DNA of 64,000 bases from Allocoleopsis franciscana PCC 7113 (GTDB lineage Bacteria > Cyanobacteriota > Cyanobacteriia > Cyanobacteriales > Coleofasciculaceae), in contig NC_019738.1 in the NCBI RefSeq assembly GCF_000317515.1, positions 3,808,001 to 3,872,000 on the forward strand. Direction: 5' to 3'. The notes below the pieces were generated by a model, which worked only from the letters and a program-made list of their open reading frames with translations, ran no database searches and was not told the origin of the DNA. A program made the translations under genes and the position numbers. Of the stretch, positions 31,953 to 42,355 are shown piece after piece. Position 1 is the first letter of the stretch, and each line of letters starts with the position of its first letter.

Positions 31953-31966
31953 GTAGAAATGCATAC
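31953..31966. promoter_or_regulatory. NtcA-type site (GTA-N8-TAC) upstream of the ABC/amidohydrolase cluster
   Basis: GTAGAAATGCATAC fits the NtcA core. It lies about 215 bases before the binding-protein start. No good TAN3T box is seen at the usual 22-base distance, and the six-base core occurs by chance about 15 times in a window this size, so the nitrogen-related genes downstream are the main support. Confidence 0.35.
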
Positions 31967-32182
31967 TACAGTTTTTTGAATTTGTCCACTGTCAATTTAG
32001 TGACATTCTGCGAACTTTCCTCGCACCTTTTTCGCACCTTTTAGAACCCTAGAACGGCATTCATCCTGTTAATCTCTGCTTAACGCAAGAACTGACCGAA
32101 ACCACAGTCAAGCGTTAGTGGGGAGGGTTCAACGGCGATGCCGCTACACCTCTACATCGTTTCGCAAGGGGAGTCATAACGA

Positions 32183-33364
32183 GTGAGTACTAGTAGGCCT
32201 TTTCACCTATCCCGTCGTCAAGTCGTTCGTGGACTTTTAGCCACCACAGCCTTTGGGGTGACATCAAAATTTGGAACGGGTTGCAGTTCATCAACCGGAA
32301 ATCAATCCAGTTCGGATGGCACAGATAAGCCCATTGTGATGGGCTTTATTTACGTTGGCCCCAAAGATGACTATGGTTATAACCAAGCCCATGCTGAGGG
32401 AAAAGCAGGAGTTTCTAAATTAACCTGGGTCAAAAGCGTAGAGCAAGCCAACGTTCCGGAAACAACGGACGTACAGGAAGCCATGCGGAACATGATCGAG
32501 CAGGATGGAGCTACGGTAATATTCCCTACCTCCTTCGGTTACTTTGACCCCCATGTCCTCAAATTGGCTCAAGAATACCCAGAAGTTCAATTTGTCCACT
32601 GCGGTGGACTGTATCAAGAAGGAAAACACCCGAAAAACGTTGGCAGTTACTTTGGATTTATCGATGAGGCTGAGTATCTAGCCGGTATTGTTGCCGCGAA
32701 GGCTACCAAGACGAACAAAGTAGGGTTCATTGCTGCCAAACCGATTCCCCAAGTACTCCGTAATATCAATAGCTTCACCTTGGGAGCACGCAGCGTTAAT
32801 CCCAACATTTCCACTCAAGTCATCTTCACCGGCGATTGGTCTTTACCTGTTAAAGAGGCAGAGGCAACTAACAGTATGGTTGACCAGAGAATTGATGTCA
32901 TCACCTGTCACGTAGACAGCCCCAAAGTAATTGTAGAAACCGCTGAAAAACGTGGCATTTTTACAACCGGCTTCCACGCCAATCAAGCTGTGCTAGCGCC
33001 CAAAGGATATCTGACCGGTGCAGAGTGGGATTGGACGAACGTCTACTCCAAATATGCGGAAATGATTCGCGCTGGCAAAACCTTAATGAATGGAGGTATT
33101 CCACATTTAGTGCGTGGGGGTTTTAAGGAAGGATTTTTGAAATTGTCGCCCTACGGACCAGCCGTCAATGATGAGGCGAAAAAGCTGGCTGATGCAGCAA
33201 AAGCCAAGTTTATAGACGGCAGCATGGTGGTTTATAAAGGGGGACTGCAAGATAATACAGGTAAAATCGTCATTCCAGCGGGTAAGGATCTAAAACAGCA
33301 GGACAGCGAACTGGAAAAGATGAATTGGCTCGTTGCAGGCGTGGTCGGCAAAGTGGGCAGTTAA
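32183..33364 (+). CDS. BMP-family ABC substrate-binding lipoprotein
   Basis: A 393-residue binding protein of the basic membrane protein (BMP/PnrA) family, which usually binds nucleosides or related heterocycles. The start is GTG at 32183 behind AAGGGGAG. The N-terminus has a twin-arginine pattern (LSRRQVVRGLL) and a lipobox-like GTGC at about residues 32-35, so it is probably a Tat-exported lipoprotein. Family motifs are VMGFIYVGPKDDYGYNQAH near 49, TVIFPTSFGYFDP, and GFIDEAEYLAGIVAAKATKTNKVGFI. It feeds the two permeases and ATPase encoded downstream. The neighbouring amidohydrolases suggest a nitrogen-rich ligand. Confidence 0.92.
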   Translation: MSTSRPFHLSRRQVVRGLLATTAFGVTSKFGTGCSSSTGNQSSSDGTDKPIVMGFIYVGPKDDYGYNQAHAEGKAGVSKLTWVKSVEQANVPETTDVQEAMRNMIEQDGATVIFPTSFGYFDPHVLKLAQEYPEVQFVHCGGLYQEGKHPKNVGSYFGFIDEAEYLAGIVAAKATKTNKVGFIAAKPIPQVLRNINSFTLGARSVNPNISTQVIFTGDWSLPVKEAEATNSMVDQRIDVITCHVDSPKVIVETAEKRGIFTTGFHANQAVLAPKGYLTGAEWDWTNVYSKYAEMIRAGKTLMNGGIPHLVRGGFKEGFLKLSPYGPAVNDEAKKLADAAKAKFIDGSMVVYKGGLQDNTGKIVIPAGKDLKQQDSELEKMNWLVAGVVGKVGS

Positions 33365-33454
33365 TCCCTATTCATTCAGCCATTAATTCCTCATGACCAA
33401 TGAATAGAGCCTATCTGCAAACCTCCATAGAAGCCAAAAAAAAACTCATCTCCT

Positions 33455-33515
33455 CTAACTCCTCAGCGACCCTCTGCGACACCCTCAGCGTTCCTCTGCG
33501 TTAAAAAAACACATT
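33455..33515. repeat. CTCTGCG-type interspersed repeat, copy 1
   Basis: The sequence has repeated CTCAGCGA/CTCTGCG units ending GCGTTAAAAAAAC. Related copies lie at about 36402-36452 and, inverted, 37280-37332, all between genes of the same cluster. Confidence 0.65.
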
Positions 33516-33574
33516 CTAGTAATACTCACAAAAACAATCCCTCCGGGGAGCAATAATCAAGTCAACCGTTAATT

Positions 33575-34660
33575 ATGCTCAATCATTCTCGGTGGCGTAC
33601 AACACTAGAAGCGATCTGCCTTCCGATCGCAGCTCTGCTTTTTTCCTTACTACTCTTTGGCATTTTCTGCGCCTTGGCAGGGGCAAATCCCTTTGCCGTT
33701 TACGCTTCGATTTATAAAGCCGCCTTTGGGAATTGGCGATCATTTCAAAACACGCTGATTCGAGCAGCCCCCTTAATGTTGACCTCTCTATGTACAGCAC
33801 TCCCTGCCCGTTTAGGTTTGATCATCATTGGCAATGAGGGCGCACTGGTGATGGGTGGCATTGGGGCAGTGGCAACCGGGCTAGCTCTCAAAGGCGCACC
33901 TCCCACCGTCGTACAAATCGGGATGGCACTGGCAGGAATCATTTGTGGGGGTTTGTGGATAGGCTCAGTCGGAGCGTTACGTCACTACCGAGGCGTGAAT
34001 GAAACCATTAGTAGTTTGTTGCTCAATTATATTGCGATCGCACTGCTCAACCATCTGGTGAGCGGGCCAATGAAAGACCCGACGTCTCTCAATAAGCCCT
34101 CCACCTACCCCATTCCTGATGTTGATATGCTGGGGAAAATTCCCGGTACCCGCGTTCACTATGGCTTGATTTATGGGTTGATTGCCTGTGTGATTGCCTA
34201 CTTCTTGATTCAGCGCACAACCTTTGGCTTCGCCGCACGTACCGCCGGGGGCAATATTCGAGCTGCTCGGATTGCCGGACTCCCAGTCGGTAAGCTAACG
34301 ATGGCAATTTGTTTCCTGGCTGGCTCTTGTGCGGGGTTAGCAGGCATGGTGGAAGTTGCTGCCGTACAGGGTCGAGCCAATGAATCTCTCAACGCTAACT
34401 ATGGCTACAGCGGCATTTTAGTTGCGTTTATTGCCCGACATAACCCCTTGGCTGCCACCTTAGTTGCAGTTTTAGTCGGCGGTATCCTTGCCAGTGGCGG
34501 TATCTTGCAGCGGACACATAATCTGCCGGATGCCACTGTTCTAGTGTTTCAAGGGTTGGTTTTCTTAGTCGTTATGTACAGTGAATCGCTCTACGGACGC
34601 CTGCCAATCTTCAAAGAGCGATCGCAAGTCAGCGGCAGTCCAGCAGCAGCAACCGTCTAA
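33575..34660 (+). CDS. ABC transporter permease, nucleoside/BMP type (first)
   Basis: A 361-residue inner-membrane permease of the BPD_transp_2 type, about 8-10 helices. Typical segments are ALAGANPFAVYASIYKAAFG, LIIIGNEGALVMGGIGA, VNETISSLLLNYIA and TAGGNIRAARIAGLP, which resemble the larger permease of nucleoside BMP importers (NupB/YufP-like). It pairs with the second permease downstream. About 210 bases separate it from the binding-protein gene, part of which is a CTCTGCG repeat. Confidence 0.92.
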   Translation: MLNHSRWRTTLEAICLPIAALLFSLLLFGIFCALAGANPFAVYASIYKAAFGNWRSFQNTLIRAAPLMLTSLCTALPARLGLIIIGNEGALVMGGIGAVATGLALKGAPPTVVQIGMALAGIICGGLWIGSVGALRHYRGVNETISSLLLNYIAIALLNHLVSGPMKDPTSLNKPSTYPIPDVDMLGKIPGTRVHYGLIYGLIACVIAYFLIQRTTFGFAARTAGGNIRAARIAGLPVGKLTMAICFLAGSCAGLAGMVEVAAVQGRANESLNANYGYSGILVAFIARHNPLAATLVAVLVGGILASGGILQRTHNLPDATVLVFQGLVFLVVMYSESLYGRLPIFKERSQVSGSPAAATV

Positions 34661-34724
34661 ATGGGTTGAAACTTGAAAAGTTCTAAGCCGTAACCAGTAA
34701 CTTGCTAACTTTCAACCTGCCAGC

Positions 34725-35687
34725 TTGCAACTATATTCACAAACAAAAAGGAGGAAATTAATGGCAACAGAAGCCTTAGGGTGGTTGGGAGTTCCGTTAG
34801 CGATCGCAGCAGGAACTATGCGGGGAGGTACGCCGTTTCTGTTTGTCAGCTTGGGGGAATGCCTGACGGAAAAAAGTGGCAAAATCAACCTGGGATTGGA
34901 AGGCACATTACTCATGGGAGCAATGACGGCCTATGGGGTTTCTTATCTGACTGGATCGCCTTGGTTGGGGGTGGTCGCGGCTGGTTTATCTGGGATGGTT
35001 TTGGGTTTCATTCATGCTTGGCTCACTCAGCAACCCAGAGTGAATGATGTTGCTGTTGGGATTGCCATGATTATATTTGGGAGTGGTCTGGCTTTCTTCT
35101 TAGGTAAGCCTTTTATTCAGCCTAAAGCGCCACCATTACCCACCTTCGATTTAGGAAATTGGAGCAGTATCCCTGCACTACAATCCGCTTTGAAAATTAG
35201 CCCACTTTTTCTCCTCGGTGTTGCCCTTGCCCCGCTCATGATGTGGTTTTTTAAATCAACTCGTTGGGGTTTATTTATCCGTGCGGTTGGTGATAGTCCC
35301 GATGCGGCTAGGGCAATGGGAGTTTCTATCAAAAAAGTGCGGATGCTGTGCATTATTGGCGGCAGCTTTTTAGCAGGAATTGGTGGTGCTTCTCTCTCTC
35401 TTTACTATCCTGGTATCTGGAGCGAACGCATCTCTAGTGGACAGGGACTGATGGCAGTTGCGTTAGTCATTTTCGCCCGATGGCAACCGATGCAATGTCT
35501 GTATGCCTCCTTATTATTTGGTGGAGCACAATCACTCGGCCCAGCCTTGCAATCTATTGGTGTCACTCAGGGTTATTACTTATTCAATTGTGCACCCTAT
35601 GTCTTAACACTTTTAATCATGATTCTTACCTGCTCTCCTAAGCGCACTGTAAGTGGTGCACCAGGGGCTTTGGGGGCGAGTAATTAG
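34725..35687 (+). CDS. ABC transporter permease, nucleoside/BMP type (second)
   Basis: A 320-residue permease (NupC/YufQ-like). The diagnostic SGKINLGLEGTLLMGAM segment is at about residues 50-66, with VNDVAVGIAMIIFGSGLAFFLG and RAVGDSPDAARAMGVSI further on. The plus-strand frame at 34725 starts at ATG? No: the in-frame ATG at 34761 (MATEALGWLG), behind AAAAGGAGGAAAT, is the more likely start and gives 308 residues. It forms the membrane channel with the first permease. Confidence 0.9.
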   Translation: MQLYSQTKRRKLMATEALGWLGVPLAIAAGTMRGGTPFLFVSLGECLTEKSGKINLGLEGTLLMGAMTAYGVSYLTGSPWLGVVAAGLSGMVLGFIHAWLTQQPRVNDVAVGIAMIIFGSGLAFFLGKPFIQPKAPPLPTFDLGNWSSIPALQSALKISPLFLLGVALAPLMMWFFKSTRWGLFIRAVGDSPDAARAMGVSIKKVRMLCIIGGSFLAGIGGASLSLYYPGIWSERISSGQGLMAVALVIFARWQPMQCLYASLLFGGAQSLGPALQSIGVTQGYYLFNCAPYVLTLLIMILTCSPKRTVSGAPGALGASN

Positions 35688-35833
35688 ATTCAAAATTCAA
35701 AAACATGACTTACAATGCTTCCTCCCCTCGCTAACCGGAGCTAAGCGTGAGGAGAGGGCTGGGGAGGGGTAAAAGAGTGTGTTGCAAAATCTGAATATAT
35801 ACAGCGATTTCCAATTCAACGAGGTACATTTTG

Positions 35834-35880
35834 ACCCCCCTAACCTCCTTACTAAAGCTCCGGCTTATTAAGGGGGGGAC
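35834..35880. repeat. Partial G/C-run palindromic repeat
   Basis: This segment has CCCCCCTAACCTCCTTACTA and then GGCTTATTAAGGGGGGG. It resembles one half of the 31758-31868 repeat, including the ACTAAAGCTC-GGCTT core. Confidence 0.55.
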
Positions 35881-35977
35881 TAGATCACACCGACTCGCAA
35901 AGTGCTGTAAATAGTTTAAATCTTGCCTTTTGGCTTTTGAATTCCCAGTGGTGCACTACTAAAAATTAACAATTTCG

Positions 35978-36397
35978 ATGTCAAAAACTTTAAAGCTTGC
36001 AGTGAATGGGACGTTGATGCGGGGCTTGGAACTCAACAGTAATCTCTTAACAGTTGGAGCAATGTTTGTGCGAGAAACAACAACAGAACCCGCCTATCGG
36101 TTGTGGTCGATTAATGACCAATATCCGGCAATGCTGCGAGTGCGAGAAGGAGGAGTTGCGATCGCCGTTGAAGTGTGGGCCGTCCCTACCGAGAGTCTAG
36201 CCACAATTTTGCTACAAGAACCACCGGGATTGTGCATCGGTAAAGTCCGTCTCAGTGATGGTGAAATCGTTCTGGGAGTCTTAGGGGAACCCATTGGCTG
36301 CGAAAACCAACAAGAAATTACTCAATGGGGCAGTTGGCGTACCTACATTGAAACACTAAGCCTATCTCCAACAATACCCAGCATCACAATTAACTGA
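35978..36397 (+). CDS. Stand-alone allophanate-hydrolase C-domain-like protein
   Basis: A 139-residue protein matching the C-terminal domain of allophanate hydrolase (AtzF/DUR1 type): LAVNGTLMRGLELNSNLLTVGA, then TTTEPAYRLWSI, GVAIAVEVWAVP and a GSWRTYIETL end near residue 125. In the full enzymes the amidase domain deaminates allophanate and this C-domain decarboxylates the product. Here it exists without an amidase domain, directly before a biuret-hydrolase-like gene, supporting a ureide-degradation role. The partner amidase must be elsewhere if it is needed. Confidence 0.8.
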   Translation: MSKTLKLAVNGTLMRGLELNSNLLTVGAMFVRETTTEPAYRLWSINDQYPAMLRVREGGVAIAVEVWAVPTESLATILLQEPPGLCIGKVRLSDGEIVLGVLGEPIGCENQQEITQWGSWRTYIETLSLSPTIPSITIN

Positions 36398-36401
36398 CAT
36401 T

Positions 36402-36452
36402 TCACTCCAAAAACTCTGCGGCCCTCTGCGCCATCCTCTGCGTTAAAAAAAC
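36402..36452. repeat. CTCTGCG-type interspersed repeat, copy 2
   Basis: The sequence AAAACTCTGCGGCCCTCTGC and further CTCTGCG units, ending GCGTTAAAAAAACC, is related to the copy at 33455-33515. Confidence 0.65.
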
Positions 36453-36506
36453 CGAGTATTCCAATGCCAAACCCGATCACCTATCAAATACTTACGGAGG
36501 TTAAAC

Positions 36507-37244
36507 ATGGGACGTTTTGTTGACGCTGACCCCTATCCCTATCCTTATAACGGGGATTTGCGTCCAGAAAACACAGTACTGCTGATTATCGATATGCAAA
36601 TTGATTTTTGTGGTATTGGTGGTTATGTAGATAAGATGGGTTACGACCTATCTTTAACTCGTGCTCCCATTGAACCCATTCGCCAAGTTTTGGCAGTAGC
36701 ACGGGAGAAGGGATTCCATGTGATGCACACCCGCGAAGGACATCGCCCCGATTTATCGGACTTACCCGAAAATAAACGATGGCGATCGCGTCAGCTTGGT
36801 GCTGGTATTGGTGACCCCGGCCCTTGTGGCAAGATTTTGGTACGAGGTGAGCCAGGGTGGGAAATTATCCCCGAACTTGCCCCCCTGCCTGGAGAAGCCA
36901 TTATCGATAAGCCTGGAAAAGGGTCTTTCTATGCGACAGATCTTGATTTGTTACTCAAACGCAAGGGTATTCAGAACATCATCCTGACTGGGGTGACTAC
37001 GGATGTCTGCGTTCATACGACCATGCGGGATGCGAATGACCGAGGGTATGAGTGTTTGATGCTATCTGATTGCACGGCGGCAACGGATTATGGCAATTAC
37101 TTGGCGGCATTGAAGATGATCAAAATGCAAGGGGGCGTTTTTGGCGCTGTTGCTGATTCGATGGCATTTATTGAAGCGATTCAAGGGGAAAATGCAGCCG
37201 CCGACCTTCAAAGGACAAAGTATTCTGTTGTGCAAAGTAACTGA
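36507..37244 (+). CDS. biuH: Biuret-hydrolase-like cysteine hydrolase (isochorismatase fold)
   Basis: A 245-residue amidohydrolase. Its N-terminus ([33 protein letters not shown]) and [20 protein letters not shown] agree closely with the rhizobial biuret amidohydrolase BiuH as I remember it. The Asp-Lys-Cys triad of the fold is present: Asp in LIIDMQ, Lys in DKPGKGSF and Cys in TTDVCVHTT. It would convert biuret to allophanate plus ammonia. The start follows GGAGG at a proper distance. It sits between the C-domain protein and the importer ATPase, which favours biuret or a related ureide as substrate; ureidoacrylate and related compounds are alternatives. Confidence 0.82.
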
Positions 37245-37279
37245 TTTTGGTAGGTTGCACAATTTTACAGGAAATGCAA

Positions 37280-37332
37280 TTTTTTTTAACGCAAAGGAAC
37301 GCTGAGGGTTACGCAGAGGAACGCAAAGTTTT
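37280..37332. repeat. CTCTGCG-type interspersed repeat, copy 3 (inverted)
   Basis: TTTTTTTTAACGCAAAGGAA and CGCTGAGGGTTACGCAGAGG form an inverted copy of the repeats at 33455 and 36402. Confidence 0.6.
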
Positions 37333-37364
37333 TGAGTTAACTAATGATTAGTGGGTTTTAGTTT

Positions 37365-38912
37365 ATGAGTACTGCAACAGCAAGAACGACTATTGAGTTA
37401 ATGAAGCCACCAGAGCTTGAGGTGGTGAAGATGACTAAGCAATTTGGTACTTTTACGGCTCTGGATGATGTTTCACTGCATCTAAAACCGGGAACGTTTC
37501 ATGCTTTGTTGGGTGAAAATGGGGCGGGTAAAAGTACTCTGGTTAAGTGCATTATGGGGTTTCACACTCCTACCTCTGGCGAAGTGTTGATTGATAAGCA
37601 AAGCCGTACTATTGATAGTCCCCGTGATGCTCATAAGTACGGTATTGGCATGGTCTATCAGCATTTTACGTCTGTGCCTGCCATGACTGTTGCTGAAAAT
37701 CTTGTTCTTTCCCGCTTCGATAGTCCTAATTTAATTAACTGGAAAGAGGAGTATGTTCGTCTTGAGGCATTCATGCAAACGGCTCCTTTTCAAGTTCCAC
37801 TGGATATCCCCATCGCTCAATTAGCGGCTGGACAGAAGCAAAAGCTGGAAATTCTTAAACAGATTTATCTCCAAGTCCGTATCTTGATTTTGGATGAACC
37901 CACGTCCGTGCTAACGCCTCAAGAAGCAGATGAAGTCTTAGGATTACTGCGCGAGGAAGTGACGGCTGGAAAGTTGAGCGTATTAATTATTAGCCACAAA
38001 TTCCGGGAAGTGATGGCATTTTGTGATGAAATTACTGTATTGCGTAAGGGCAAGTTTGCAGGTCACGGATTGGTCAAAAATCTCACTGTCTCAGATATGG
38101 CTGAGATGATGATGGGTGAGAGGCGGGAACCGCAACGGGTGGAAAAAACAGTACTGCTTAACCCCAAACCAGTGCTTCAGGTACAGAACCTTCACGCTGA
38201 TAAAGAGAATGGCGTTGAAGCCATTAAGGATATAAATTTGACGGTAAACAGTGGCGAAATTGTTGGGATTGCTGGGATTTCTGGCAATGGGCAGAGGGAA
38301 TTGGTGGAAGTCTTAGCCGGACAACGTCCTGCTACGTCTGGGCAAGTGTTGGTTAATGGAGAGGTTTATACCGCAACACGAGCCGAGATGTATCGGCATC
38401 AAGTTTTTTCGCTACCGGAAGAACCCCTCCGCAATGCTTGCGTACCTCACATGAGTGTTGCAGAAAACCTTGCCTTGCGAACATTTGACCGTTCTCCCCA
38501 AGCTAAAGGGGGTATGTTACTTGTATTTAAGGCGATTCGACAGATGGCTCAAGGGTTAATTAACACGTTCAAGGTTAAAACGCCCTCACCCGACACACCC
38601 ATCGGCAATCTTTCTGGAGGAAATGTGCAGCGTGCAGTACTAGCGCGAGAATTATCGGGCGATCGCATTAATCTGCTCATCGCGGCGAATCCCTGCTTTG
38701 GGTTGGATTTTGCGGCTGTGGAGTATATTCATGGGTCTATTGTTGAGTCACGAAACCGAGGTGTAGCGGTGCTGCTGGTGAGTGAAGATTTGGATGAACT
38801 TCTGAAGTTGGCTGACCGGATTTTGGTGATTAGTGAAGGGCAGTTTGTTTACGAAAGTACGACTAGAGATGCCGACTTTGCCACCATTGGTCAACGCATG
38901 GCAGGACACTAA
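37365..38912 (+). CDS. Double-domain ABC ATPase, nucleoside/BMP type
   Basis: A 515-residue protein with two ABC domains (NupA/YufO-like). Domain 1 is intact: Walker A GENGAGKST near residue 51, a signature-like LAAGQKQKLE near 157, Walker B ILILDEPTS near 177. Domain 2 is degenerate, as usual for this class: GISGNGQREL replaces Walker A, LSGGNVQRAV is the signature, and LLIAANPCFGLDF replaces Walker B. It energises the importer whose binding protein and permeases lie 2-5 kb upstream. Its stop overlaps the next start by one base. Confidence 0.93.
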   Translation: MSTATARTTIELMKPPELEVVKMTKQFGTFTALDDVSLHLKPGTFHALLGENGAGKSTLVKCIMGFHTPTSGEVLIDKQSRTIDSPRDAHKYGIGMVYQHFTSVPAMTVAENLVLSRFDSPNLINWKEEYVRLEAFMQTAPFQVPLDIPIAQLAAGQKQKLEILKQIYLQVRILILDEPTSVLTPQEADEVLGLLREEVTAGKLSVLIISHKFREVMAFCDEITVLRKGKFAGHGLVKNLTVSDMAEMMMGERREPQRVEKTVLLNPKPVLQVQNLHADKENGVEAIKDINLTVNSGEIVGIAGISGNGQRELVEVLAGQRPATSGQVLVNGEVYTATRAEMYRHQVFSLPEEPLRNACVPHMSVAENLALRTFDRSPQAKGGMLLVFKAIRQMAQGLINTFKVKTPSPDTPIGNLSGGNVQRAVLARELSGDRINLLIAANPCFGLDFAAVEYIHGSIVESRNRGVAVLLVSEDLDELLKLADRILVISEGQFVYESTTRDADFATIGQRMAGH

Positions 38913-39268
38913 TGCAGCGAGTTTTAATCCTCAAAGAATTATTCGATATCGCTGCACACCAGGATGAGTTGTCTTGGGAACCGTTTCATCCTGGAGTTGA
39001 TATCTACCGACTTTATAAGGATAGTGAAAGCGGGGCAGCCGCAGCACTCCTTCGCTACAAGCCGGGGGCAAGTGTTCCAATGCATGTTCATACGGGTTTT
39101 GAACACATCTTTGTCCTGTCAGGTTCACAAACCGATGAAAATGGCGAACACCAAACTGGAACTCTTGTCATCAACTCACCTGACACTCACCATAGTGTGA
39201 TGAGTCAAGCCGGTTGCATTGTTCTTGCCATTTGGGAAAAACCGGTCTTGCTGTGTCAGGAAAGTTGA
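38912..39268 (+). CDS. Cupin-domain protein
   Basis: A 118-residue single cupin. Metal-binding motif 1 is PMHVHTGFEHIFVLSG (His, His, Glu) and motif 2 is INSPDTHHSV, which supplies the last His. It resembles ChrR/anti-sigma-type cupins. The ATG overlaps the ATPase stop by one base, indicating translational coupling. A role as a metal enzyme acting on the imported compound, or as a sensor, is possible but unknown. Confidence 0.85.
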   Translation: MQRVLILKELFDIAAHQDELSWEPFHPGVDIYRLYKDSESGAAAALLRYKPGASVPMHVHTGFEHIFVLSGSQTDENGEHQTGTLVINSPDTHHSVMSQAGCIVLAIWEKPVLLCQES

Positions 39269-39369
39269 AGGTTAGAAGGTTGAAAGGTTGAATATTCGCG
39301 CCCGATAACCTGCAACCGATTAATCTGCAATCTACTAACTTCAATCTTTTAAAACCTTCAACACTTCTT

Positions 39370-40047
39370 ATGGTTTCTATCTCTGCTCAACCTTACGATT
39401 ACGAACTTCCTGCTCATGGAGGTTTAGCGCTGCTAATTATCGATATGCAGCGAGACTTTTTAGAAGAAGGAGGTTTTGGTGATGCATTGGGTAATGATGT
39501 GACGCGACTCAGAGCAATTGTCCCAACTCTCAAGGAGTTGTTAGCAGCCTTTCGTGCTTACAAACTCCCGATTTTTCACACCATTGAAGGTCATCAACCC
39601 GATCTATCCGATTGTCCACCATCGAAGCGGCATCGGGGACGGGGTGAGTTGAAAATTGGTGATGTCGGCCCGATGGGACGGATTTTAGTCCTCGGTGAAT
39701 CGGGAAATGGGATTATTCCTGAACTGCAACCCCTCCCTGGTGAGACAGTCATTACCAAACCCGGAAAGGGTGCATTTTACAACACCCATTTAGAATCCCT
39801 CTTGCACGAACAGGGAATTACCCATTTGTTGATCACGGGGGTAACGACTGAAGTTTGCGTTCAAACCACTATGCGAGAGGCAAATGACCGAGGATTTGAA
39901 TGTCTATTAGTTGAAGATGCCACCGAAAGCTACTTTCCAGCATTTAAGCAATCCACTCTGGACATGATTGTTGCTCAAGGTGGCATTGTGGGTTGGACGG
40001 CGTCAGCCGCAAACGTTCTCCAATCCCTAGCCAAGTGGAAGTCTTAG
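39370..40047 (+). CDS. Second isochorismatase-fold amidohydrolase (possible triuret hydrolase)
   Basis: A 225-residue relative of the biuret-hydrolase-like gene 3 kb upstream. It has the Asp ([10 protein letters not shown]), Lys ([10 protein letters not shown]) and Cys ([17 protein letters not shown]) triad and the [21 protein letters not shown] segment paralleling [10 protein letters not shown], but lacks the N-terminal [11 protein letters not shown] region. A triuret hydrolase (TrtA) of this fold is known to feed biuret to BiuH; its presence here beside a BiuH-like enzyme makes that a reasonable guess. Ureidoacrylate or other amides remain possible. Confidence 0.78.
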
Positions 40048-40201: not shown

Positions 40202-42355
40202 ATGAAGGATGCAAATACCCAGAAGGCTTGGCTTTCTGGTTCAGCAAGGTTCTGGATGTCTTTGTTGGTTTCGAGTGTGATGGTTTACGGTTTACCCTTG
40301 CAGGCGACGGCTAATCAGGTTCCCAGCAAGGAAGCGATCGCAAAAGTACCCCCGTCCCCACTTTCATTAGAGGCTCCCGCTGATGTTCCCTCCTTGGCTA
40401 TAACTGACCAAACCCCCTCTGAAGTTAAGTTCCAGGATAATAGCTCAAGTCCTCTTGGGTGGACTGGAATCGATTTAGAGTCAGCATTGAGTCCTCTTGA
40501 GAGGACTTGCTATATGAGCCAGAGAATTAATTCTCTGGCTGATGAACCGCTAAATGCAGAATGTGAGGTTAATAAAGTCACCTCTATCGCTGAGTTGACA
40601 TCGCACACCAGAGAAATTAATCCGAATCCAGTTCAAGACACCGTCTCAATACCTCCTCCAATAATATCTCAGACCAATCCTGTCGAATCATTCGCTGAGA
40701 TACCCACGTTAGAGGTTCCCTCTGTAGCAGAACTCTCTTCCGGGGATGGAGACAGCGATTCCATGTCACAAGTCACCAACGTGACGCAACTCAGGGATGT
40801 TTCTCCCGGAGATTGGGCGTTTGAGGCGTTGCGATCACTGGTTGAACGTTACGGTTGTATTGCCGGATATCCGGATGGCACTTATCGGGGTAATCGCGCC
40901 ACCACCCGTTATGAATTTGCCGCAGGTTTAAACGCCTGCCTGCAACAAATTGAACGCATGATGAAAACGGGTGGAGATGGGTTTGTGACTCGCCAGGATT
41001 TAGAAACCTTGCAGCGACTGACAGAGGATTTTAAAACCGAACTAGCTAGCTTGGGGACACGGGTTGATCAGGTAGAAGGGCGGGTTGCCTATCTAGAAGA
41101 CCATCAGTTTTCTACTACAACTAAGCTGAGTGGTCTAGCGTGGTTTAACATGACTGGAGCCAATGCGGGTCGTAATGTCAAAGTGGAGGCAATTAATGCC
41201 GCCTCTCCTGATGTTAGATTTGCTGGGCGAGGAGCAGATGGTAGACCCCTAGTTCAGGAGGTGGGTAACCCAAACATTACCATGAGTGGTCTGACTTGGT
41301 TAACTTTCAATACCTCCTTTACGGGCAAAGACCTTTTGGTAACTCAGTTAGCAGCGGGTAATGCTTTATCTCCCGCTAACCAGTTCGCTTCGGCAGGGCT
41401 TTTCAATACCTTTGGCACTCCGTTTCTCGATCAGACGGCAGGACCCAATAACGGGTTTGCTGAGGTGGTGATTCATGACTTATTTTACCAATTTCCTGTT
41501 AGTAATAAGATTCAGTTGGTTGTTGGTCCCCGCGTGAACTGGCATCGTTATTTTGATAACAACGCCTTTACCTTCTTTCTCACAGGGGGTAGCACTTTCA
41601 ACTCTAATGGCACTACTGTTCATGACCCGATTGATCGCGGTTCTGGAGTGGTTGCCCTAATTAATCTCAGCAAGCAGTTTGATTTGCACGTCGGTTACTT
41701 GGGTGAGAATAATGAATTTTTACCGGCTGCCTTTGGATTTAACACTTCATCTAACCCAAGCAAGGGGTTGTTTAGTGGCACCAACACGATTACGGCTGAG
41801 TTAACTTACAAACCAACTCCAACAGCAAATATCAGACTGATCTATTCTCATAACACCCTGGATAATAATGGAGGTGTGGTGAGTGCAGAACCGATTTATG
41901 GGGTGGCGGATGATGGTCAAGGGGGACGAATTAAACCTGCCACCGTCAATGCTTTTGGAGTCAATTTTGACTGGCTGCTTACTTCCAAATTTGGGATTTT
42001 TGGGCGTTATTCCTATGCCAGCACAGAGATCGATCCATCTACACCTGGGCGATCGGGAGGTAACATTAATTCTCAAGCGTTCCAATTTGGGCTAGGCTTT
42101 CCTGATTTAGGTAAACCGGGAGCACTGGCAACTCTCTCATTTCTAGTGCCTTTTGATGTATTAAGTGGTCGTCGGTTCTTGGTTGCTGGCGGTGGGGATG
42201 GCGGGACTCAATACGAATTTGAAGCCACCTATCACTATCCAATCACTAATAATATTGCGATCGTTCCAGCCTTTTATTGGATTGGGAATGCAAACAACTT
42301 CGACAGCAATCCGGCAATTTACGTGGGGAATTTACGCGCTCAATTTAGTTTTTGA
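40202..42355 (+). CDS. SLH-domain outer membrane porin (OprB-like, iron-uptake porin type)
   Basis: A 717-residue porin. A signal peptide (about residues 18-38, ending ATAN) is followed by a long low-complexity linker, then an S-layer homology domain (about 198-255: DVSPGDWAFEALRSLVERYG, GYPDGTYRGNRATTRYEFAAGL), a coiled coil, and a C-terminal beta-barrel ending in QFSF. The SLH domain anchors the barrel to peptidoglycan, as in cyanobacterial SomA/OprB porins, which pass small solutes or iron. A GAGGAAG ribosome site precedes the ATG. Residues about 82-114 read through a hairpin-type genomic repeat (40447-40541) kept in frame. It follows the ureide cluster but a link is unproven. Confidence 0.9.
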   Translation: MKDANTQKAWLSGSARFWMSLLVSSVMVYGLPLQATANQVPSKEAIAKVPPSPLSLEAPADVPSLAITDQTPSEVKFQDNSSSPLGWTGIDLESALSPLERTCYMSQRINSLADEPLNAECEVNKVTSIAELTSHTREINPNPVQDTVSIPPPIISQTNPVESFAEIPTLEVPSVAELSSGDGDSDSMSQVTNVTQLRDVSPGDWAFEALRSLVERYGCIAGYPDGTYRGNRATTRYEFAAGLNACLQQIERMMKTGGDGFVTRQDLETLQRLTEDFKTELASLGTRVDQVEGRVAYLEDHQFSTTTKLSGLAWFNMTGANAGRNVKVEAINAASPDVRFAGRGADGRPLVQEVGNPNITMSGLTWLTFNTSFTGKDLLVTQLAAGNALSPANQFASAGLFNTFGTPFLDQTAGPNNGFAEVVIHDLFYQFPVSNKIQLVVGPRVNWHRYFDNNAFTFFLTGGSTFNSNGTTVHDPIDRGSGVVALINLSKQFDLHVGYLGENNEFLPAAFGFNTSSNPSKGLFSGTNTITAELTYKPTPTANIRLIYSHNTLDNNGGVVSAEPIYGVADDGQGGRIKPATVNAFGVNFDWLLTSKFGIFGRYSYASTEIDPSTPGRSGGNINSQAFQFGLGFPDLGKPGALATLSFLVPFDVLSGRRFLVAGGGDGGTQYEFEATYHYPITNNIAIVPAFYWIGNANNFDSNPAIYVGNLRAQFSF
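40447..40541 (+). repeat. Multi-hairpin repeat inside the porin gene
   Basis: AGTCCTCTTGGGTGGACT, then AGTCCTCTTGAGAGGACT and TATATGAGCCAGAGAATTAA with its TTCTCTGG arm match the order of stems in the repeats at 51306-51420, 54209-54321 and 54980-55105. Here the sequence is translated in the porin linker. Confidence 0.75.

Follow-up and report, generated by a model that had tools for sequence, protein, structure and literature searches.

A probable triuret and biuret utilization cluster in the cyanobacterium Allocoleopsis franciscana PCC 7113, in which a free-standing AH_C protein and urease may take the place of AtzF

How could a cyanobacterium complete the degradation of biuret if it lacks the amidase expected at the last step? 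The question is raised by a block of genes in a 64-kb stretch of Allocoleopsis franciscana PCC 7113 DNA (NC_019738.1), referred to here as the window. A sequence-only reading had described an 8-kb block, running in one direction, with a BMP-type importer, two hydrolases of the same fold, an AH_C protein and a cupin, and this description is accurate: all genes are intact and have clear family matches. Eight open reading frames occupy positions 32183–40047 on the plus strand. The host genome is 7.97 Mb in size, and the closest relatives of its biuret hydrolase (BiuH) are cyanobacterial. The explanation that we favor, and regard as fairly probable as a whole, is that of a nitrogen-scavenging triuret and biuret cluster whose pathway is finished by AH_C and urease. 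A porin and a BMP-type ABC importer would bring ureides into the cell. The triuret hydrolase TrtA would convert triuret to carboxybiuret and ammonia, carboxybiuret would lose CO2 to give biuret, and BiuH would hydrolyze biuret to allophanate and ammonia. The free AH_C protein, a relative of the second half of AtzF, would then remove CO2 from allophanate to give urea, which the chromosomal urease would split into ammonia and CO2. The imported ligand, all of the activities in PCC 7113 and, above all, the AH_C reaction are parts of this scheme that we infer.

The first gene of the block encodes an AtzT-like BMP-family substrate-binding protein (Bmp PF02608; 32183–33364), recognized by family match and alignment, and the next two encode the permeases of an ABC importer (BPD_transp_2 family matches; 33575–34660 and 34725–35687). 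They are followed by the free-standing AH_C protein, a proposed decarboxylase of 139 amino acids in which PF21986 is the only full domain (35978–36397), and by BiuH, which has the isochorismatase fold (36507–37244). The importer ATPase, with two ABC domains (37365–38912), and a small ChrR-like cupin (38912–39268), which is present in the cluster in several phyla, were both assigned by family match, and the block ends with TrtA, the second enzyme of the isochorismatase fold (39370–40047). Downstream and in the same direction lies a gene matching the SLH/OprB porin family, SomB type (40202–42355, plus strand), the product of which is a probable route of entry through the outer membrane. Such a porin is also found at the cluster flank in two other loci (L007 and L014), so it may belong to the cluster, and its membership is considered likely.

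Regulatory signals around the block are less distinct. GTAN8TAC is the NtcA type of box, associated with cyanobacterial nitrogen control, and such boxes are frequent by chance. A candidate site of this type (31953–31966, plus strand) precedes the first gene by about 216 bp and coincides with the start given for the block in the sequence-only reading; it is only suggestive, since the window contains 10 GTAN8TAC sites compared with 6.6 expected by chance. A search for RNA families between 31000 and 43000 gave no convincing match, and hence there is no guanidine riboswitch in this interval.

The substrates of the cluster are indicated by its two hydrolases. The first scores 414.4 bits against NF050097, above the BiuH equivalog cut-off of 370, and is 75% identical to the BiuH of R. 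leguminosarum. The second falls under this cut-off, and its best match is the TrtA of Herbaspirillum (63% identity). Published work on TrtA lists which residues are catalytic and which of the second shell distinguish TrtA from BiuH (PMC7948467), and 14 diagnostic positions were taken from it. The first hydrolase carries the catalytic D, K, and C together with second-shell Y, Y, S, D, T, and V, and is of the BiuH type at 14 of 14 positions; the second carries the catalytic triad together with F, N, A, E, Y, and I, and is of the TrtA type at all 14. This split is near-exceptionless in 58 BiuH-like and 41 TrtA-like sequences from other loci. In a phylogenetic tree, some inner forks of which are weak and the outgroup branches of which are long, the window BiuH groups with characterized BiuH, apart from TrtA and RutB, and the window TrtA groups with Herbaspirillum TrtA (25-row clade, SH-aLRT 98; inner 18-row clade, 96). 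A RutB (ureidoacrylate) identity is ruled out for either enzyme by 29% identity and the wrong signature. The earlier biuret and triuret hypothesis is therefore supported by the phylogeny, in which both enzymes fall with BiuH and TrtA rather than with RutB, and by the presence of every published signature residue, and the assignment of the cluster to triuret and biuret appears highly probable. Paralogues that score 333–353 bits against the BiuH model, between BiuH and TrtA, occur in genomes G180, G077, G099, G118, G089, G152, and G020, and possibly represent a third specificity.

BiuH relatives are common. Fifty-six loci extend 5 kb or more to either side of BiuH; in 37 of them a complete importer of four transporter genes is collinear with BiuH, and in 37 a TrtA-like gene lies within about 4.5 kb of it. 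These frequencies mean that the cluster is not a chance arrangement. As to BiuH, TrtA and the importer, it is a cluster of a known kind; it is new in the last step. In ammonia oxidizers, biuH, trtA, atzF, and bmpA-nupABC are co-located (PMC12625717). The clusters of ammonia-oxidizing bacteria and comammox Nitrospira thus share the combination of BMP importer, BiuH and TrtA with the window, but they carry atzF, and those of comammox also allFGHK, whereas the window genome is without AtzF. The TrtA-BiuH-AtzF pathway of Herbaspirillum and R. leguminosarum (PMC7948467) likewise has orthologues of BiuH and TrtA clustered together, and their diagnostic residues are the same as in the window; the window genome differs from it in having neither AtzF nor TrtB/AtzH, and in having an AH_C-only protein of another clade. 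Neither the paper on the ammonia-oxidizer clusters (PMC12625717) nor that on TrtA (PMC7948467) mentions cyanobacteria, and biuret is absent from a review of urea catabolism across 308 cyanobacterial genomes.

Further relatives of the cluster show the order BMP-permease-permease-(formamidase)-BiuH-(AtzD)-ATPase-TrtA. In Rhizobium brockwellii the order is BMP, permease, permease, formamidase, BiuH, AtzD, ATPase, TrtA-like hydrolase, and a cupin as in the window, and in an Enterobacter plasmid cluster AtzF stands in front and AtzD is lacking. The formamidase of both, the AtzD of Rhizobium, and the fused AtzF of Enterobacter are all absent from the window genome, as is CgdAB. The absence of AtzD rules out cyanuric acid as a source in PCC 7113, and that of CgdAB rules out guanidine via the carboxylase route. 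The nitrilase-like gene of the sister clusters was considered as the lost allophanate amidase and rejected: it is a formamidase by equivalog match (579 bits, cut-off 406), in Enterobacter it occurs together with AtzF, and the window genome does not have it. This formamidase, which has the nitrilase fold (for example, L009:8937-9953), is found in 46 of 76 genomes with BiuH versus 2 of 118 without, and its gene frequently comes immediately before that for BiuH. The Enterobacter cluster (L095; Enterobacter cloacae plasmid pENT-784, CP009856) is a complete AtzF-BMP-BiuH-TrtA set flanked by transposases; its plasmid is small and came from a sink drain, and Klebsiella and Citrobacter plasmids have BMP genes similar to its own. 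A DUF1688 protein is encoded directly downstream of AH_C in the biuret cluster of L125 (L125:5472-6728), and in genomes G002, G027, and G056 a TrtA-like gene directly adjoins a gene of the AtzD/TrzD family.

The importer of the window can be compared with AtzT, the nearest solved match of its BMP protein. AtzT belongs to the AtzSTUVW set beside atzDGEHF in Pseudomonas sp. ADP, likewise a BMP-type importer adjoining ureide-degrading genes; it prefers guanine, and its polar pocket residues are unlike those of the window BMP (PMC6834077). The window protein has an apparent Tat signal (SRRQVVRG) and a lipobox at its N-terminus, and a Tat signal has also been reported for AtzT (PMC6834077). In the AtzT pocket, guanine is bound with an affinity of 110 nM between Tyr45 and Trp194, with polar contacts to Ser97, Glu165, Asn218, and Asn220 (PMC6834077). 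At positions 45, 97, 98, 139, 165, 169, 194, 218, and 220, all aligned BMP proteins of BiuH clusters read Y S F E/Q Q N W H D, compared with Y S F T E N W N N in AtzT and W S F R E G W H D in 3s99, another relative with a solved structure. The aromatic sandwich of Tyr45 and Trp194 is retained in the window BMP and the other BiuH-cluster BMPs, and the guanine contacts E165, N218, and N220 are changed to Q, H, and D in the window BMP and in every BiuH-cluster BMP aligned. Retention of the sandwich, together with a uniform change in the polar set, makes it likely that the importers of BiuH clusters share one dedicated planar ligand other than guanine, for which biuret or triuret would be the natural guess.

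It could be reasoned instead that the importer serves for purines or nucleobases and that the hydrolases process ureides of intracellular origin, derived for instance from oxidized urate. The binding of guanine by AtzT fits this possibility, and so does the proposal that triuret is a product of oxidative purine or urate metabolism (PMC7948467); in verrucomicrobial clusters, moreover, the slot is taken by a membrane protein that looks like a nucleobase permease but matched no family. Nevertheless, the three guanine-contact side chains are changed in all BiuH-cluster BMPs from cyanobacteria to rhizobia, and the order importer-BiuH-ATPase-TrtA is retained without purine genes, and uptake of purines is considered unlikely. 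The initial suggestion of a dedicated BMP importer holds insofar as the importer stays linked to BiuH in different phyla and has a specialized pocket. Its supposed novelty does not hold, since biuH-trtA-bmpA-nupABC has been published (PMC12625717) and AtzSTUVW is known (PMC6834077).

There remains the fate of allophanate. The window genome encodes three amidase-family proteins, namely GatA, an AtzE-family enzyme, and one other, and a genome search for an AtzF-type amidase found none. The missing amidase had been supposed to be either elsewhere or replaced, and this search points to the latter. Judged by the domains of AtzF, the window protein has the AH_C domain and lacks the amidase domain. 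It matches PF21986 with 140.5 bits and is the sole AH_C in the genome, which also has a urease. In a tree it falls in a free-standing clade (SH-aLRT 100), separate from every AtzF C-domain, those of split cyanobacterial AtzF among them, and is therefore not a recent AtzF fragment. It nonetheless has in common with the allophanate hydrolase domain of AtzF and urea amidolyase 23 invariant residues, including N20, E65, R121, and Y123, and their conservation in both clades makes shared chemistry likely. The decarboxylation chemistry of the C-domain reportedly goes back to Fan et al. 2013. The N and C domains of allophanate hydrolase act in sequence (PMC5770610). A literature search for "allophanate decarboxylase" gave no match.

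A non-catalytic role, in which free AH_C is a leftover or a structural partner of another amidase, would suit a protein that is small and often unlinked to pathway genes. The conservation of the 23 residues argues against it, as does the span of the AH_C clade from E. coli to cyanobacteria, and we consider such a role quite improbable. A different objection concerns the need for an enzyme. AtzF takes allophanate to ammonia without a need of urease. In solution, allophanate breaks down to CO2 and urea, and a strain unable to degrade urea can go no further (PMC6219798), unlike one that has urease; since allophanate decarboxylates spontaneously, an enzyme may not be needed, and this counts against the AH_C step. 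In the R. leguminosarum pathway the fate of allophanate has been stated as unknown (PMC6219798). The sequence itself shows which protein families and signature residues are present, that the linkage is conserved, that AtzF is missing, and that urease is encoded, and we put the chance that AH_C plus urease replaces AtzF in the window genome at about even.

The distribution of free AH_C bears on this step. The survey covered 194 genomes of the cyanobacterial class, in which related genomes are not independent counts; the free type was taken as a score of 125–143 bits to PF21986, a working range borne out by the tree for the members sampled. It is present in 79 of the 194 genomes: in 67 of 76 with BiuH versus 12 of 118 without (Fisher 2e-29), an association that persists when stratified over eight main families (p 7e-8). 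AtzF, fused or as two genes, is found in five of the nine BiuH genomes that lack AH_C, and an AtzF-type amidase accompanies AH_C in only 3 of the 79 AH_C genomes. Urease is found in 78 of 79 AH_C genomes versus 13 of 22 AtzF genomes; a point on the other side is that urease is common in the class, at 166 of 194. BiuH and AH_C occur together without AtzE, AtzF, or AtzH in 21 genomes. It also speaks against the proposed step that in 50 of the 79 genomes AH_C is near none of the marker genes; many assemblies are fragmented. A second, lower-scoring free AH_C type adjoins AtzD/TrzD-family genes on the opposite strand in genomes G076, G130, G158, and G144.

Some of these data could equally reflect a split allophanate hydrolase, in which the AtzE-family amidase (at 2.77 Mb) hydrolyzes allophanate or carboxybiuret and free AH_C decarboxylates the product. 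The AtzE-family amidase of the window genome is a clear one (733 bits, cut-off 461), and AH_C adjoins AtzE in 11 surveyed genomes, which fits an amidase plus a decarboxylase equally well; in one that was inspected, L107, AtzG lies between them (L107:3286-5220). Real split AtzF pairs also exist, in G192, G015, G098, and G021. However, 25 of the 79 AH_C genomes have neither an AtzE nor an AtzF amidase, 21 of these with BiuH, and AtzE is also present in many genomes without AH_C or BiuH. The known substrate of AtzE is 1-carboxybiuret (PMC6219798), and no AtzG was found adjoining the AtzE of the window genome. A split enzyme seems to us an unlikely explanation here.

It must likewise be weighed whether free AH_C has the TrtB role, decarboxylating carboxybiuret for the TrtA step alone, while allophanate passes to urea unaided. 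The window genome has no AtzH/TrtB-type protein (AtzH-like domain PF11533), AH_C directly adjoins TrtA in L109, L110, L122, L123, and L125, and the two co-occur in the survey, where the TrtA counts are lower bounds (at least as many as found). Against this, loci L010, L023, and L037 have BiuH and AH_C with no TrtA within the stretch examined, and AtzH is also present in 34 of the 79 AH_C genomes. Furthermore, AH_C replaces AtzF in Nitrospira: in two sister clusters of the same order, including allFGHK, free AH_C comes after TrtA in L074, and L081 has a fused AtzF at that point. AH_C also occurs with guanidine-type genes in G062 and with a carboxylase in G061, in both with no BiuH at the cut-off and no TrtA among the matches listed. 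These two alternatives each explain part of the data; the TrtB role, too, has a low probability in our judgment.

The guanidine-type setting is instructive for the reading with AH_C and urease. In G062 the order is DUF1989-DUF1989-biotin carboxylase-AH_C, with no BiuH, AtzE, or AtzF at the cut-off, and we read this set as a putative guanidine operon with AH_C in the slot of AtzF. Its carboxylase, which may be of the guanidine or the urea type, is broken into two open reading frames, so that the set may be decayed or misassembled. In G061 the end of a carboxylase gene is followed by AH_C. The DUF1989 (CgdAB) pair is present in 31 genomes: 16 have AtzF, and 7 of these 16 have urease, whereas of the 15 without AtzF, 14 have AH_C and all 15 have urease.

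The main difficulty for the reading with AH_C and urease is E. coli. In strain CFT073 (NC_004431; L090:24439-30403), c4763 (PDB 5c5z) is of the same free-standing AH_C clade and adjoins a TrtA-type hydrolase, which has 14 of 14 TrtA signature positions. The set also has allFGHK-type genes and a cytosine permease, and is without BiuH and without a BMP importer in the stretch seen. A urease search of the control E. coli genome gave no match, which makes it probable that AH_C can serve a purpose independent of urease; possibly the carbamoyl-transfer route of AllFGHK stands in for urease there. The gene set suggests that this uropathogen may use triuret or a similar ureide, and triuret has been found in human urine (PMC7948467).

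The biuret and triuret, guanidine-carboxylase, and AtzEG routes all converge on allophanate. It can tentatively be proposed, at somewhat less than even probability, that the free AH_C family is an allophanate decarboxylase that works with urease and replaces AtzF in all of these routes, and that the importer pocket is dedicated to ureides. The conserved pocket makes a dedicated biuret or triuret transporter directly testable. If the proposal is true, a one-domain protein together with urease would close the pathway, which would account for a possible use of biuret and triuret, and perhaps of guanidine, by many cyanobacteria, and a function would be given to a family annotated only as "allophanate hydrolase-related", c4763 of E. 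coli included.
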